NCBI GenBank assembly: GCA_001598975.1
Contig: BBXU01000609.1
Coordinates: 1 to 47,084, forward strand
Direction: 5' to 3'
Source of the DNA: Parachlorella kessleri
Lineage: Eukaryota; Chlorophyta; Trebouxiophyceae; Chlorellales; Chlorellaceae
Length of the DNA stretch: 47,084 nt
Below the pieces are notes generated by a model. The model was not told the DNA's origin. It searched no databases and saw only the letters and a program-made list of their open reading frames with translations. Both the position numbers and the translations under genes were made by a program. Shown piece by piece: positions 6,383 through 14,496 of the stretch (positions are counted from its first letter, which is position 1; every line of letters begins with the position of its first letter).

Positions 6383-9292
6383 TTAGTGAAAGCATTGCAC
6401 AACAATCCTAGCCAGCTCCGGCTGCACCGCCCAAAGCAGTGGCAAGAACTCCTGCCGCTCGTCAGGGCTCATGAGCAAAATCTTGTCCCTGGCCTTGCCC
6501 TCGTTCCAGCCAGCAAAGCGCAGCGACAGCTTGCAGAAACGCCGGTGGCCCGGCCATGCCTCCACCTGGCATGCCTTGCTGCAGTAAAAGAAGCGCCTGC
6601 GGCTCACAACAGAATGGGCAGCAAGGTTACTGAAACCGTCACCCACCAATGGTAGCACGGATGCCTTGAATCTTCACAGGCATTGCCTTGCACATGGCAA
6701 AGTCTTCAAATATGCCGTAAATGCAGCGGTCATGAACACCTAGCAGAATATGTTAGGCATCACATAGACTAGGTCTTGTTGGTATTCAAGCACACAGTCA
6801 CTGCACCTGCGCACGCCGGCTCGCAAACGCTCTGACGCAGATGGCACCTGCTCTTTGCCCCATACCATCACGTCAATCCATCTGAAATGCTCTGACACCG
6901 AGCCCCACACCTGGCTGGGCTAGACTTGCCTGCACCCTGTGCATTCCTTCAGCTTGGCCTGCTCCCTGCTCACGCCACACGCAGCGCAGCGCAGCGCAGC
7001 CTGGTCACGGGGCAGCACGGCAGGGAAGGGCGGCTCTGCAGTCTGGCCGGCAGCCGCTGCAACATCAGCCTGGCTTCCTGCTGCCACAGCTGCCTGTGCT
7101 GCTCCCGTGGCTCTGGAGTCGGCAAGAAGGTTGGGACCTCCAATCTCCTGGCATAGGGCGAGCAAATCCTCTTTGGTCCGGCACTGATCTAAGCGCTCCG
7201 GAGAGGCAAGCTGATGAGCGCCCAAGTAATCCTTCAGGAGTGCCTCAGGCCACAGCTCAGCTTCATGGGCCATCCTGGCCAGCGTCAGCCGCCCAACAGC
7301 TTGCACACCCTGGGTGTGCAGGGCAACGGTGTTCCCCACAGCAGCACCTCGCTTGCCAGAGCCCAGCATGCCCCCACCAGCGCCTCGCTGTCCTAGCTGG
7401 TGCCCCTGCGGTGCGGACGACGCCTGCTGCTCCTCGCGCTGTGCACGACATCGCTCCAGCTTTTCCAACAGGAGGGCACTCGCGGTGAAGAGGGCTTGGT
7501 CTTCTATGTGGCCAAGGGACGCTTTGCACCTGCACCAATAGGCTCAGCCGGGTCCACAGAGAGCTAGAGAGCCCCCAAGCAGATTACGGGCAAACACGTT
7601 GCCATGTAGACTGAGATCCACGTGGTAAACATGCAAACAAGCACACCCGCGTGCCGCAGACTGCGAGACGCCTAGGACAGGTGAGAAACCGAGGTCGGAC
7701 AGCGCCTTGAGCCATGCCTTGAATCCAGGACTGCATGGAAATCTTACGTAAGGGTGAGGGCTGATGCAAAAACGCATGCAGAGGCAGCATAAACATGCAA
7801 GCACAAACATGCAAGCACCAGCTAACGTGGTTGTAAGGCTCACATTAACGCGTGTGAGGTGTCGGCTGCAGCAAGGTCGCGAATACCAAAGTCCAGCAAT
7901 GTTCCTGTGAGTTGCGGCTTCAGTTGAGTGAGCAACAGTAGAAGCTCCGCTGCAGCGGCTGCAGTCTTGGTGCCCTCCATGGCACTGCTCCACAGCCGCC
8001 TGCAGGCTGCTAACAGTCCAGGGGTGCTGTCAACCGCCTGCACGCAACCGGGTAGCGAAACATCTCGTCCACGTGTTTCCTACAGCAGTTGGCGTGTAGC
8101 AGGCAAGCAGCAGGCACTCTGTGACGCGTGCTGGAGCCTGGCAGTGAAGAGCTGGTTGGCGGACTGAACAGACCAGCTCTCCCAACCTGAAGCAGGCGAG
8201 TCTTCACTGCATGTACTTGCTGCGGGGACCAGCCGTCAGCCACCCGTCCAAAGTGGGAGGTGGGCTCGTGTTGAGGCGATGCTCCACTACCGGAAGCCAC
8301 CGCGGCGGTGCACGGGGCAGATGTTCCACTGGATAACCCCGCTTCAGTAAATGCGACCTGACCCACAAGGCACGATGCGGCCAGCAGAACAACTTGCTGG
8401 AATTGTGCAATGTCAGAGTCACGTGTGCTGGCACCAACAGAGCCCAGGGAGGTGCGGCACCGCAGTAACCCCCTGAAGCAGCCGGCCTCTGCCAACCCCG
8501 CCAACAGGGCGTAATCCTACAAGGAGAAGACGGGGGTAAAATCCAGCATCTCGTCCGGGTCGTGGCCTACAACCCAGCACCTGTCACACGACCAGCCAGG
8601 GAGGCGGCGAACCAAGGAACTTCATGAGGGCTGCAATATGGAAGGCACAGATCTTAACAAGGCCATGGCACACATGTATGACTTGCTCAGCCTGTCATGC
8701 CAGGCCATGGCACACACGCCTGACTTGCTCAGCATGTCATGCCAGGCCAGGGGCCACACGACCTATGCTCACTGCAGTCTCCGCTGTCAGCAAGCTATGT
8801 AGGTGGGCAGCAGCCATCATGTACATTGGCAGCCTGCCGGTGTCTTGCTGTGGCTCCCAGCCTGACAGTATTCTCACTAGCGGCACTGCCAGTGCCAGGA
8901 GGGCTGGGGACTCCAGGCTCCGCAGCGGCACATAGTGCAGTCCTACGACGGCCGTCTCCCTGGCAGTGCAATCACTACTGTTGAGGGCTGGGATCAGCAA
9001 ACTCTGCACTTCTTTCTGGCTAACCAGGTCCAGGCAACCAGTGCCGACCACTAGTTGCCTACGAGTTGCCAACTTTCTCAGCTGCGCTACATAGGCCTGC
9101 ACGAAGTAGGGAGCTCGTCATCATATGGGGTTCAGGCCAAGATGCCCTCACTATCAGCAGTCTACGGCCCTCGTCGTGCGTCAGCAAAGCACCTACGTGA
9201 AGGGAGTCCCGAAAGTTGCTGCTGTCCTTGCCATGCTTCTCCAAGGCCCCAAGGGCCGTTTGATATGCTGCTTTCACCCTTTTCACGGACAT
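6383..9292 (-). CDS. MYND-type zinc-finger protein
   Basis: Seven exons on the minus strand: 9292-9152, 9096-8773, 8516-8217, 8037-7844, 7730-7647, 7529-6930, 6596-6383, all phases matching, 618 aa. Residues about 529-569 form a MYND finger split by the last intron: CAACG...KECTGC in exon 6 and FFYCSKACQVEAWPGHRRFC in exon 7, giving C-x2-C-x11-C-x2-C-x5-C-x3-C-x7-H-x3-C. MYND fingers bind two zinc ions and mediate protein-protein contacts. The N-terminal 500 residues are helical and Leu/Ala-rich (VVLLAASCLVGQVAF, AAELLLLLTQLKPQL), possibly an armadillo/HEAT-like scaffold, but no family is recognised. Residues 430-520 are Ala/Gln-rich. The intron after 6930 has a GC donor (AG|GCAAGT). It is divergent from the LCIB-CBM20 gene with 398 bp between start codons. 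An additional upstream 5' exon cannot be excluded. Confidence 0.82.
8661..8744. repeat. Two-copy 42-bp tandem repeat in a MYND-gene intron
   Basis: Units 8661-8702 and 8703-8744 differ at a few positions. They lie in the intron between the exons ending at 8773 and starting at 8516. No coding role is visible. Confidence 0.85.
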
Positions 9293-9690: not shown

Positions 9691-12600
9691 ATGACGGCTA
9701 GGCTTCGCTGCCATGCGCGCCAGGGCCCCTCAGCCCCGGGCCACCTCAGGCCCCGTGCAAGGCCTGTTGGCTACGGTCAGCATAAGCGCAGCAGCTTGTT
9801 CGTCGCCGCGGCAGGCAGTAGCCGCCAGGTGCCAGCGGCCAGTGCAGTCGTAGCTGAACAGGGTCCCATCCAAGACAGCTTGCCCAGCGCAGCTGGTGTT
9901 CTACCGGCAGTGGCAGTAATACCAGGCAGCACAGAGGTGCAGTACCTATCGAAGCGTGCGCAAGACGTCGAGACACATTTCCCAACAGCGTTAGGGGTGG
10001 ATGACTTCCTCCAGAGGCTGGAGGTGGCCCTGTGGAGCTTTGGTTTCAAGCACAAGAACAGTATTGGTGAGCGCAGCCAACCCAGTGCTAGGATGCCACG
10101 TTGATGTGCACTGGCCTGGCTCTGCCCAATCCTTTATTACACATGACTTCACCTGACCCTCCTACGGGCTTGCTGCTCCTGCAGCCTGTGTGAACCTTTG
10201 CCGGGACGAAGTGACCCAGACGCTTCAGCACAAAATCGAGCAGGTGAGTGCACTCTCCCTCCTGGTTGCGACCTTGTTGTGCAAGCTTGTGAAGCCCACC
10301 TCGGACGCTAAAGATTCTCATTGCTGGTGGATGCACTTACTTCCCGCTAAGGGCTGGTCTTGCTTTGCAGGTGTTTGGAGCATCCTTTGTGATCAACGGC
10401 TTGGGCGGTCTGCTCAGCTGTGGTCTGACTGGCATGGCTGCGGGGCTGAGCCACTCGCCCGCTGACGAGGTAGGTTCTAACTTGCCTTTGCCTCGGACGT
10501 AAAAGGACATGCCTGAGGGAGAGGGCAGCAGCCCCTCTGACCACAACACCCCTGCATGCTGTGCTCTGCTGGACAGTCTTCCGGTTGACTAACAGCTAAG
10601 CACCTTTGTCCTCGCTTGGCGTGCTGAAGAGCCAGAGAGCTAGGATACAGCACTGCACAGCACAACCCTGACTTGGGACAACCTTGCAGTATCATCCAAC
10701 ATGTGTCCTGACACGCGCCCTGGCACCATGTGCAGGCCTTAGGAGGGCGCGAGCGCTACATCTTCTTCAGCTTCCCTCACATTGCCATCGACTCCAGGGG
10801 TACGCTGGGTCACATCAGCCGCCCAGGCCGGCCTGGGGTGAGCTGCGCCTGTGGCGCCGTGGCCAAAGCTCTGGGGGATATCAAGCGGGATGGCCTTATC
10901 TCCAGCTGCAAGCCGCCAGGAGGTAAGCCTGGCCACCCATGGGCGTGTGCTAGCAGGTCTGCTTGCACCTTGGCCCTGGAGCTGCAGAAGGCGTGCAGGA
11001 GAGAAATAATCGTAGGGACTTTTTTCCTCCAACATGGTGTTGCCCCAATGTTGGTTCGGGGATGGGAAGCGGTCACCTTTGCATGTAGGCCATCAACATT
11101 TTGTCAGGCCTTGATACCAGCTAAATTGCACTGCAAAGCCTAGTTGCCTGCTGCCTGGCATGCAGTCCATGAGGCGGGTGACGTGGAGTTCTCCATCCTC
11201 AAGCAGCGCCTGGCCCGGCGCCTGGAGTTTGAAGGGCACACCGACGGCTCCGTGAAGACACTGACCCTGGCAGACCTCACCAAGGTGAGACAGTGGATAG
11301 AGATATTGTATCGGGAGTGCTAGGAAATGGGGGATGGCATAGGCGAACGATACCGGCTGCGGTCGCCCTCGATCTACAATATCTCTACACCAAGGTGAGG
11401 CAATGGGTAGAGATATTGTATCGGGACTGCAAAGAAGTGGAAGATGGCAGAGGCCAATGGTAATGGCCACCCACAGCCAGCTGCCTTGCTTCATCAGCCG
11501 TGTGGCCTAGTACCTTCTCTCCAGCCTGGCTAGCCGCAGTAATACAAATGTGATGGCAAGCGGCATACGTAAGAGTGAACAGTTAGGAAGTCGTCGCACC
11601 GGGGCTGTAATGGCCATGCAGGTGGCTGAGCGCACCATCAGCAAAGACCTGGAGCTCCTCATTTCGCATGCTGTGGACACCTGCACGGCCGACTATGCAG
11701 GCAAGCTTGGGAGGGAGGTTTGCAGGACTTCCACAAGTTACACTGCGTTGCAATACATGTCTTGGGTCGCTTTGGTCAGTAGAACGCGGTGCTGGTGTGG
11801 GTGGGTTCATCATACCTGAACTCCTTGACAGGTGCTGCCTAGATGCCACACAGGGGTGCCGTGGCCACACAGGCACGACTCAAATAATGTGCCCTACGGC
11901 TGAACCATATATGTTCCTGCTCTCATTGCAACTCACCACAGCACTCTCCTGCACGTCCGCTCTCATCCCTTGCCCACCGTGTGCCTGCATTTGGCCGTGC
12001 CTGCTGCAGTGGTGACAGGCGTCCAGATTCACAACTGGGGGGTGGATTTCGACGACCCCGAGCCCAATCTGGAGTTTGTGGCCCCCGTCAATGTTTATGC
12101 GGTAGTCAACGGCAAGCAAACCTACCTGGACCTGGGCAGGCTGCCTGTGAGTGGGCTGCCAGCTGGAAAAATGGGCGGCTTTCCGTGTGTGTGTGTGGCA
12201 ACGTGTGTCGTACAACTAGCTAGTGTAAAAAGGCCCTTACAGCCTCCGTGTTGCTGTTGCCCTGGCTGGGGTACCATCTGCCCATGTGCTTGGCTGGGTA
12301 GACAGGATTGTTGGCATCAAACAGTGTCATTTGAAAGATGGGGCGCTTGCCTCTTTTGTCATGCTGATGTAGCAGGACGTTCAGCAATTGGCTCCGGGTA
12401 CACTGATGTACCATGGAAGGTGAGGGTGCCGCGGCTAGGTGCAGCTGCTAATGTCCGCCCTTCCCGTTCTTCCGCTCCGCAGGGGTTGACTCCTCGACAG
12501 ATCCGGGTGCTGGCAGAGCAGACCAAAGCAGCGTCACTCAATGGGAAGGCCACAGCCGACACCCAGTCAGCCTCGAGGCTTCAGGAGCTGAACCCTGTGC

Positions 12601-14496
12601 GGAGTGCCAAGAGGTATGTGCGATCAACGACTGGGGTTCCATAGGTAGCGGTGCTGCTACCCTGGCTTGAGGTCCTGGGAGACAAAAGACATGGTGGAGT
12701 GAATGCCTAGCTAGCCGCTGGGCAGCAGCAGTGAGCAGCTGGTTGTGGTGGGCAGTTACAGGCAGTTTTACTTCCATAGTACCAGGCCACATCTTTGGGT
12801 GCACTCTCAGTGTAGCCAGCGGCGTCCATACCTCTGGCTGGCCTTTGCTGCTGCAGAGCCAAGGAGGCCTCAGGGGTCGATGGCACCCTACTGAACGGCA
12901 CCAGCCACAATGGAGCGGCACCCCTGGTGCAGCCCTCCAGCGCGCACAACAGCACTGCAGGCACCAGCAATGGTGCGGCGCCTCCAGGAGAGCTGCATGA
13001 ATCCAGCGTTTCTGCACCAGCCACCAATCCCACCGAGCCACTGCTTGAAGACCAAGCACAGCAGGAGCAGCAGCAGCCTCCTGCGGAGCTCGAGGGCAAC
13101 AGCACCTCTGGTGGCACTGGTGTGTGGTCGGTGCACTTTGCGGTGCAGTGCGGTGTGGGATTTGGCGACAGCCTGGCAGTGGTGGGGTCGGGCCCAGAGC
13201 TGGGGGCCTGGGATGCCCAGGCAGGGCTGCAGCTGGTGTGGGGGGAGGGAGATGTGTGGACAGGCGCAGTGGACCTACCCATGACCGTGGAGGGAATCAG
13301 CGCGGAGTTCAAGGTAAGGGACTGCCGACCAAAGCAACCCCTTGAGCAGGCTGGCCGCTGGCTGCTGGTTAGAATTGTTCTAAGGGCTGCATGGTACTCC
13401 AATCAACAGGCTGCCCTGCACCGTGCCTACATAGTATGGCAGCCAACCCTGCACACAGCTTGCTTGCTTCTGCACCCATGCGCTGACCACCACATGCTTC
13501 AACGCAGCTTCAAGGATGTACCACCCATGCTGGTGTCCTCATGTATTCGGGGAACTGTGTATATGTCCCCTGGCTGGCTTTCTACACATGCAGGTGGTCA
13601 AGCTCCTTGCCAGCGGGGCTGCCGAGTGGGAGGTGGGTGATAACCGCCTGCTGGAACTTTCACCCAGCCACGCCACCGCGGCTGACGTGGCAGTCAGTTG
13701 CTGCTTCGGAAAGCACGAGTCCCTGCGAGTGAGTGTGCTGGAACGGGGGGAGGAGCCGCAACTGGAGGATGGCGGCAGGCAGGCTGATGTACCGGAGCAG
13801 CTCCCGCAGCACACCCCCCAGCCGCAGCAGCAGGAGCCGGGACAAGAACTGGAAGAGGCAGCGTCAGTGGCGGTGCTGGCGACCTCTGGAACGATGGAGC
13901 TGTCTGAGTCGCCCCAGGAGCAGCCGCAGCTGCTGGAGCGGCTTGCAGAGCAGGAGCATGCGGAAGGCGACGCAGCAGCGGTGGCGGCACAGCAGCAGGG
14001 GCCAGATGCCCTGAGAACACAAGATTTGGATGCGCTGCTGGCGCAGCTACGCAGGGCCAAAGCCAAGATCCTCGCCGCGACCAAGGCCAAGCAGCAGCAG
14101 CTGGAGTCAGCCCCAGCACCCCAGGCGCAAACAAAAGTTGACGAGGCACTACAGCACTCTGTTGCCCACCTCCAGAACGGTCACCATGCCGTGGCAACAG
14201 CTCAGGCAGCCCCCTCGCCACCAGCCCTCATGCTGCATCCTGAGGCTGAAAATGCTCCTCAGCAGCAGGCGCCTCAGCCCCAAGCCCAGCAGCATGTTGT
14301 GGCAGAGCAGCAGGCAGGTCTGGAGGGCGCTGGCCAGCTGGCGGATTCAAATGGTTCGAGTTCGCACATGACAGGCCAGGGCAGTGACAGCTCGCAGCCA
14401 GAGCGGCAGCTTGGCCCAGAAGCTTTGACCAGCCTGGAGCGGCTGGAAGTGGAGGACGATGGCACCATCACGTTCTGCTTCAGGTCAGGCAGCTGA
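9691..14496 (+). CDS. LCIB: LCIB/LCIC-like theta-carbonic anhydrase fused to a CBM20 starch-binding domain
   Basis: Ten exons: 9691-10066, 10185-10243, 10371-10469, 10736-10922, 11166-11284, 11622-11700, 12010-12146, 12483-12613, 12857-13313, 13594-14496. All phases agree, giving 848 aa. Residues 1-45 resemble a chloroplast transit peptide (Arg/Ala/Ser-rich). Residues about 95-395 are the LCIB domain: LGVDDFLQRLEVAL, ACVNLCRDEVTQTL, VFGASFVINGLGGLLSCGL, FFSFPHIAIDS, GRPGVSCACGA, VAERTISKDLELLISHAVD, VTGVQIHNWGVDF, LTPRQIRVLAEQ. Candidate zinc ligands are C162, H193 and C215 or C217. After a Ser/Asn/Gln-rich linker, residues about 484-585 form a CBM20: VVGSGPELGAWDAQ, LVWGEGDVW, AEWEVGDNRLLELS. 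A Q/A-rich tail follows, with a helix near 690-725 (LDALLAQLRRAKAKILAATK). The CBM20 exon has no upstream in-frame ATG and joins exon 8 with matching phase, so it is not a separate gene. The intron after 11700 has a GC donor. The proposed role, CO2 recapture or bicarbonate conversion at pyrenoid starch, is inference. Confidence 0.9.
11278..11455 (+). repeat. Duplicated 5' splice junction with an internal inverted copy in LCIB-CBM20 intron 5
   Basis: The exon-5 end and donor (CACCAAGGTGAG, from 11278) with about 60 bp of following intron recur 110 bp downstream, from 11388. Between them lies an inverted copy of TAGAGATATTGTA (reverse complement at about 11373-11387). Using the second donor would insert 110 nt and shift the frame, so 11284 is kept as the exon end. 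Confidence 0.8.

Follow-up and report, generated by a model that had tools for sequence, protein, structure and literature searches.

In Chlamydomonas, LCIB moves to the edge of the pyrenoid at very low CO2. The move depends on both LCIC and the starch sheath, and it has been argued that soluble LCIB/LCIC may require anchoring (PMC8825250; this and the other PMC-numbered sources are cited for selected passages). The Chlamydomonas LCIB and LCIC proteins lack a starch-binding domain, and the anchors go unnamed in those passages. Starch-binding domains do occur at pyrenoid starch in SAGA1, SAGA2 and LCI9, which are not described as carbonic anhydrases in the passages used, the SAGAs being coiled-coil CBM proteins with Rubisco-binding motifs (PMC10473226, PMC13167743). 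SAGA1, with its putative starch-binding domain, has been cited as a suggested requirement for LCIB relocation (PMC10473226), and the CBM20 domains of SAGA proteins bind starch and also maltoheptaose (PMC13167743). These sources agree with the original prediction on the DNA analysed here, made from the sequence alone, which placed a shell of Chlamydomonas LCIB/LCIC near the pyrenoid starch sheath at low CO2 and CBM20 domains on separate proteins. The DNA is an entire contig of 47,084 nt (BBXU01000609.1; hereafter the window) from the draft genome of the trebouxiophyte green alga Parachlorella kessleri (50.9 Mb, 1642 contigs), and it carries a gene in which an LCIB domain and a CBM20 domain appear to be fused. 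Both domains are known; what appears to be new is the addition of a CBM20 to a member of the LCIB family.

Gene model and domain content

The fusion gene lies on the plus strand, from an ATG at 9691 to a stop codon at 14494–14496, with 10 exons and 9 introns that encode 848 amino acids (aa) without an internal stop. Its parts are the following; model confidence is given as the predicted local distance difference test (pLDDT).

9691..14496, plus strand: whole fusion gene, exons 9691–10066, 10185–10243, 10371–10469, 10736–10922, 11166–11284, 11622–11700, 12010–12146, 12483–12613, 12857–13313 and 13594–14496
9691..9912, plus strand: Ala/Arg-rich N-terminal stretch, residues 1–74, net charge +8 (residues 1–60), mostly pLDDT below 50
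9988..12104, plus strand: LCIB carbonic anhydrase domain, residues 100–338, exons 1–7, from Pfam and the predicted structure
10199..10852, plus strand: LCIB active-site region, with C131/R132/D133 at 10199–10207, H173 at 10452–10454, H193 at 10778–10780, R207 at 10820–10822 and C217 at 10850–10852
11701..12009, plus strand: intron 6, GC-AG in the spliced model, with the deposited protein P0001 reading alike
12105..13115, plus strand: last stretch of the LCIB part (helix predicted up to residue 371) and low-complexity linker, residues 339–482, mostly pLDDT below 50 from residue 373
12614..12856, plus strand: intron 8, phase 2, junction of the LCIB and CBM20 parts, from spliced alignment and splice and codon scores
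13116..13707, plus strand: CBM20 domain, residues 483–586, split by intron 9 (13314–13593, phase 0, after K548)
13708..14493, plus strand: Ala/Gln/Glu-rich tail, residues 587–848, with predicted helices at 661–680 and 691–719 and a terminal beta hairpin at 829–844

The borders were reproduced by spliced alignment of P0001 to the window. The model is identical (100% over 848 aa) to this protein, 'hypothetical protein N2152v2_000217 [Parachlorella kessleri]', which comes from a contig of 1,146,684 bases in another assembly. This identity and the Pfam matches confirm that, as first proposed, both domains share one spliced frame, and the predicted intron 12614–12856 was correct to the base. The original prediction also knew of no description of the fusion; no description was found in the open-licence literature, by titles and the beginnings of abstracts, but the sequence is already deposited as a hypothetical protein, so the fusion is not wholly unknown. 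Misassembly of the locus was ruled out, since the second assembly (1.15 Mb contig) encodes the same 848 letters; by locus tag both assemblies appear to be from strain NIES-2152, and are thus possibly not independent isolates. From its composition, the stretch of residues 1–74 is a probable chloroplast transit peptide. As for the unusual intron 6, a second GC donor was found by spliced alignment in a P. kessleri paralog, P0057.

Residues 100–338 matched LCIB_C_CA (PF18599), a family that the original prediction called theta-type and that Pfam describes as beta carbonic anhydrases, with 235.6 bits (cut-off 25; E 5.4e-70; profile positions 1–222 of 223), and a Pfam scan of the whole protein with E up to 1 yielded nothing beyond LCIB_C_CA and CBM_20. 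The closest solved structures by sequence were Chlamydomonas LCIB (335 bits, E 7e-99) and LCIC (317 bits, E 2e-93). The predicted fold of this part superimposed on LCIB crystal 5k5w chain B with a template modelling (TM) score of 0.91, normalised by target, at 54% identity, and on LCIB/LCIC crystals (5k5w, 5b5x) with 0.91–0.93, normalised by crystal chain. Residues C131, R132, D133, E134, H173, H193, R207, R210 and C217, among them the Cys-His-Cys set of zinc ligands, were identical in all 26 aligned LCIB proteins, and the checked residues are the same in an LCIB of Chlamydomonas incerta. H173 and R207 align with His162 and Arg194 of P0127, a 448-residue C. incerta protein; His162 and Arg194 are given as important in the LCIB family (PMC5876011). 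Judged by profile, active-site residues and predicted fold, the protein is thus a member of the LCIB family.

The second part matched CBM_20 over residues 487–576 with 50.7 bits (cut-off 23.3; E 1.6e-13; profile 3–93 of 97), and its closest solved structure by sequence was a glucoamylase starch-binding domain (E 5e-4 with the long query, 6e-5 with residues 483–590 alone). A CBM20 beta-sandwich was predicted, with a fold match over residues 483–586, within one residue of the 484–585 first assigned to this fold; the matches included 4rkk, presumably laforin, and STBD1 (8x8k). Laforin is an enzyme and STBD1 a tether, both held on glycogen, in animals and without a carbonic anhydrase. In the first structure model the CBM20 region had pLDDT below 50 because all 25 other alignment rows were LCIB proteins without CBM20, a result neither for nor against the fold; the second model used CBM20 rows, and there most of the LCIB part was poor for the same cause. 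The tryptophan and Asn/Arg positions noted as typical of CBM20 are present (W514, W530, W560 and N565/R566). The Trp-Lys-Trp of starch site one is kept as W514, K548 and W560 (site per PMC9920598). The Q/A-rich tail was likewise as described, residues 577–848 having 14% Gln, 16% Ala and a net charge of −24. The SAGA-type Rubisco-binding motif, [D/N]W[R/K]xx[L/I/V/A], had no match in the 848 aa, either complete or without its first residue; being a Chlamydomonas motif, it may not apply in this algal class.

The terminal hairpin (14434–14481 in the window) was predicted with block means of pLDDT of 89 and 80 over residues 831–848. Similar ends were seen by eye in the CBM20 reading frames of two other P. 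kessleri contigs, C1340 and C1341 (loci L025 and L026). A loose hairpin pattern gave five matches in four Chlorellaceae proteins (P0003 twice, P0004, P0009 and P0022) among 144 LCIB relatives, ahead of the LCIB domain. The hairpin is a possible shared targeting or binding motif. Tail matches on contigs C1197 (E 0.06) and C711 (E 0.125) looked like chance.

The junction of the two parts

In four paralogs of P. kessleri mapped to their loci (P0056, P0057, P0058 and P0062), (A/G)LTPRQ is immediately preceded by a phase-0 intron; 182–185 bases further on comes a phase-2 tail intron, at NAKQRMQN^FTKLL, RSKERLES^YSHL, RSKQREQI^FGKLAG and RAKSRMES^FARLAS. P0057 has one extra intron within the stretch of 182–185 bases and P0062 one after it, so that its phase-2 intron is the last but one. 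The counterpart in the window is NPVRSAKR^AKEASG, also phase 2, which is intron 8 (12614–12856); the CBM20 therefore sits beyond a tail intron common to the relatives. The exon before it has 131 bases, fewer than in the paralogs, because it lacks part of the LCIB tail. With matrices from 36 paralog introns, the donor score of intron 8 was reached by 10 of the 265 GT sites of the gene and its acceptor score by 2 of the 392 AG sites, itself counted, some of these being other real splice sites of the gene. Both the tail-intron comparison and the score training used only these four protein/locus pairs.

Codon scores peaked in the gene's own frame in the linker (0.21), the two exon parts of the CBM20 (0.27 and 0.31) and the tail (0.12), whereas introns 8 and 9 were negative in every frame. 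A control tempers this test, since LCIB exon 1 scored −0.11 in its own frame, still its best. From the stop before 12816 to a Met within the CBM20, this reading frame has no ATG, so that an independent CBM20 gene would have no start codon in that frame before the domain; on this ground such a gene was rejected. The sequence TGTAA, the green-algal polyadenylation signal, was absent from the 243 bases of intron 8 and occurred at least once within 1.2 kb after the stop in all five genes checked; with 0.62 occurrences per kb in the window, it was not counted as evidence. Were intron 8 retained, translation would stop after nine further residues and yield a whole LCIB part without the CBM20, so that a mix of fused and unfused forms may exist. 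Taken together, the two domains are very probably joined in one gene.

Relatives of the two halves

Two protein searches, each among ca. 8,000 scored candidates of 274 to 1484 aa sharing most words with the query, returned 55 matches and the best 120 of 181, or 144 distinct proteins. In a Pfam scan with E up to 1, all 144 of these listed matches contained LCIB_C_CA and one contained CBM20; the co-occurrence that the original prediction suggested looking for was thus found in the fusion itself. In the P. kessleri genome, searches that score the best candidates, and hence give lower bounds, found at least 18 LCIB exon matches at at least eight places on seven contigs (C194, C250, C269, C328, C362, C1486 and C1574; two places are ca. 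12 kb apart on C194) and at least 22 CBM20 matches on 19 contigs. Among these candidates, only the fusion contig had matches to both domains. For comparison, three LCIB homologs (PMC5876011), or LCIB, LCIC, LCID and LCIE (PMC8320531), are named in C. reinhardtii.

The sisters of the fusion among LCIB proteins are P0056 and P0057 (N2152v2_006045 and _001635). They align with 57% and 62% of the query, at identities of 72% and 64%, and share the tail intron, although they have 405 and 404 aa, last coding exons of 16 and 13 bases, and no CBM20. A 38-row LCIB tree joined the fusion to these two (support 98/94), and the surrounding clade (100/99) held eight rows from P. kessleri and one further database protein. 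Because it is nested among P. kessleri sequences, its LCIB part looks like a lineage-specific duplicate.

The CBM20 was nearest to that of C1341 among 13 other first exons (30 of 52 residues, and 27 of 59 in the second exon), followed by C1340 (27 of 59); neither contig has an LCIB match. Like the fusion, both have FK and then GT at the same point, with a second exon further on. FK followed by GT at this point was found in 9 of 19 CBM20 exon matches, the window counted (the 22 less L003, L007 and L008, read on the wrong strand), although GT may also begin a Val codon; second-exon matches further on in L020, L021, L025, L026 and L028 support the intron, those of L020 (E 0.25) and L021 (E 2.8) being weak. 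Both halves of the fusion therefore look home-grown, from P. kessleri genes. Recent copying of DNA from one of the other CBM20 genes was rejected: when the stretch from exon 9 to the 3′ end was compared with 19 loci, only 57 of its bases could be aligned, at 81%, with C1341. By these comparisons the module is old or evolves rapidly. At two other loci, L027 (C628) and L028 (C1152), the CBM20 exons are followed, by eye, by long Ala/Glu/Gln-rich, coiled-coil-like frames in a SAGA-like layout, and these genes are candidate SAGA-like starch tethers of P. kessleri.

Other fusions occur in the family. A bestrophin lies ahead of the LCIB domain in P0047, P0048 and P0022, which are proteins of 981 aa from Dunaliella salina, 875 aa from a JGI contig of 3548 bases (four member sequences) and 929 aa from Micractinium conductrix, the last of which may be two merged genes; Bestrophin_2 was found in 3 of 75 proteins scanned (best E 2.4e-84), and no title among the papers listed in a literature search names such fusions. 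Since an interaction of LCIB/LCIC with BST3 has been reported (PMC8825250), these fusions point to the same partner. Repeated LCIB domains were also seen by eye, three in P0002 and two each in P0003 (Micractinium), P0004 (Chlorella ohadii), P0005 (a pedinophyte) and P0006 (tag Mesvir), some of which may be merged neighbours. Upstream of the fusion, at 6920–7543 on the minus strand, the window has a reading frame with a Cys-rich stretch (CAACGVSREQAKLKECTGC) that resembles a MYND zinc finger.

Possible function and alternative explanations

The best explanation, to which we assign a probability of about 0.6, is that the gene encodes an LCIB-type carbonic anhydrase held on starch by its own CBM20. 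The protein would be a zinc-type enzyme of the LCIB family whose C-terminus was lengthened by a CBM20 akin to those of other genes of the alga. Once made, it would enter the chloroplast, where the LCIB part could assemble with itself or with the ordinary LCIB paralogs (seven further gene places in the draft genome), while the CBM20, on a flexible linker of ca. 110–150 residues, would hold the assembly on starch. On a pyrenoid starch sheath, the enzyme would sit where CO2 leaks and convert it to bicarbonate; the anchor that Chlamydomonas LCIB borrows would be built into the enzyme, covalent instead of through partners. Starch anchoring by the CBM20, predicted from the domains, is likely, whereas the odds of a role in pyrenoid CO2 recapture seem evenly balanced. 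Cells of P. kessleri have been pictured with a pyrenoid and starch sheath (PMC9821113).

Several observations count against this explanation. Starch site two seems to be retained only in part: F498 stands in place of Tyr527 and W530 in place of Trp563, while at Tyr556 the alignment has a gap, close to W524. This site varies among CBM20s (PMC9920598). The branch of the fusion is long, 1.03 versus 0.23 and 0.30 in its sisters, its row having been trimmed to the domain and theirs not. The fusion also departs from the family consensus slightly more than the median row, and recombinant Chlamydomonas homologs lacked enzyme activity (PMC5876011). The fusion is known from one species, probably one strain, and a search with residues 347–724 among the 7,995 scored candidates that share most words with the query (proteins of ca. 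208–661 aa) found no fragment or independent copy at E 0.01 or better, a weak test given this scope and the low-complexity tail. A nutrient-replete P. kessleri cell without starch granules has been reported (PMC4867602), so that the hook may at times have no target.

The most serious alternative, though an unlikely one, is a starch-bound but non-catalytic LCIB, acting as a structural layer or as a tether subunit that fixes active paralogs. It would resemble the LCIB/LCIC barrier proposed, as non-catalytic, where recombinant, purified Chlamydomonas homologs lacked enzyme activity (PMC5876011), and it would fit the seven other LCIB places, whose contigs have no CBM20 match. Against it, every active-site residue checked is kept, and departures from positions conserved in at least 90% of proteins are barely above the row medians: 4 out of 102 positions in one alignment (median 2) and 5 out of 99 in another (median 3). 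As many departures or more occur in 25 of the 75 rows and 26 of the 70, the fusion counted. Somewhat less probable is binding to stromal storage starch, with a role in balancing pH or bicarbonate where starch grows: a CBM20 alone would not tell storage starch from the sheath, the Chlamydomonas-type Rubisco-binding pattern is missing, albeit in another algal class, and P. kessleri has starch grains among its thylakoids (PMC9821113). The function of Chlamydomonas LCIB around the pyrenoid, with a placement that needs the sheath (PMC8825250), speaks for the sheath.

That neighbouring LCIB and CBM20 genes were merged in the model, or are joined only by rare read-through, is improbable. The deposited model and ours are both predictions, single odd LCIB fusions among the relatives (with PP2C, Cpn10 and a protease) may be errors of this kind, and a transcript retaining intron 8 would give a complete LCIB part. 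Against this, the exons are only 243 bases apart, intron 8 coincides in position and phase with the tail intron of the paralogs, and no in-frame ATG precedes the CBM20, although a short first exon inside intron 8 would be compatible with this last observation. Least credible, with very little in its favour, is a CBM20 that senses soluble malto-oligosaccharides and alters the enzyme or its assembly, with no anchoring. Binding of maltoheptaose by SAGA CBM20 domains (PMC13167743) and the retention of site one with apparent partial loss of site two would agree with a sensor; the long flexible linker would hardly allow tight coupling. We know of no sensor-type CBM20 in the LCIB family.

If the CBM20 does hold an LCIB-type carbonic anhydrase on starch, the question of how these enzymes stay in place becomes testable in a single molecule by domain removal; gene editing is available for P. 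kessleri NIES-2152 (PMC10916037). More tentatively, one CBM20-bearing subunit might co-assemble with ordinary LCIB paralogs and fasten the entire layer of CO2 recapture to the starch sheath of the pyrenoid, and the fusions in this family might then name both anchoring partners, starch and a thylakoid bestrophin. For pyrenoid engineering, the P. kessleri fusion would also be a ready-made part with which to attach a carbonic anhydrase to starch.

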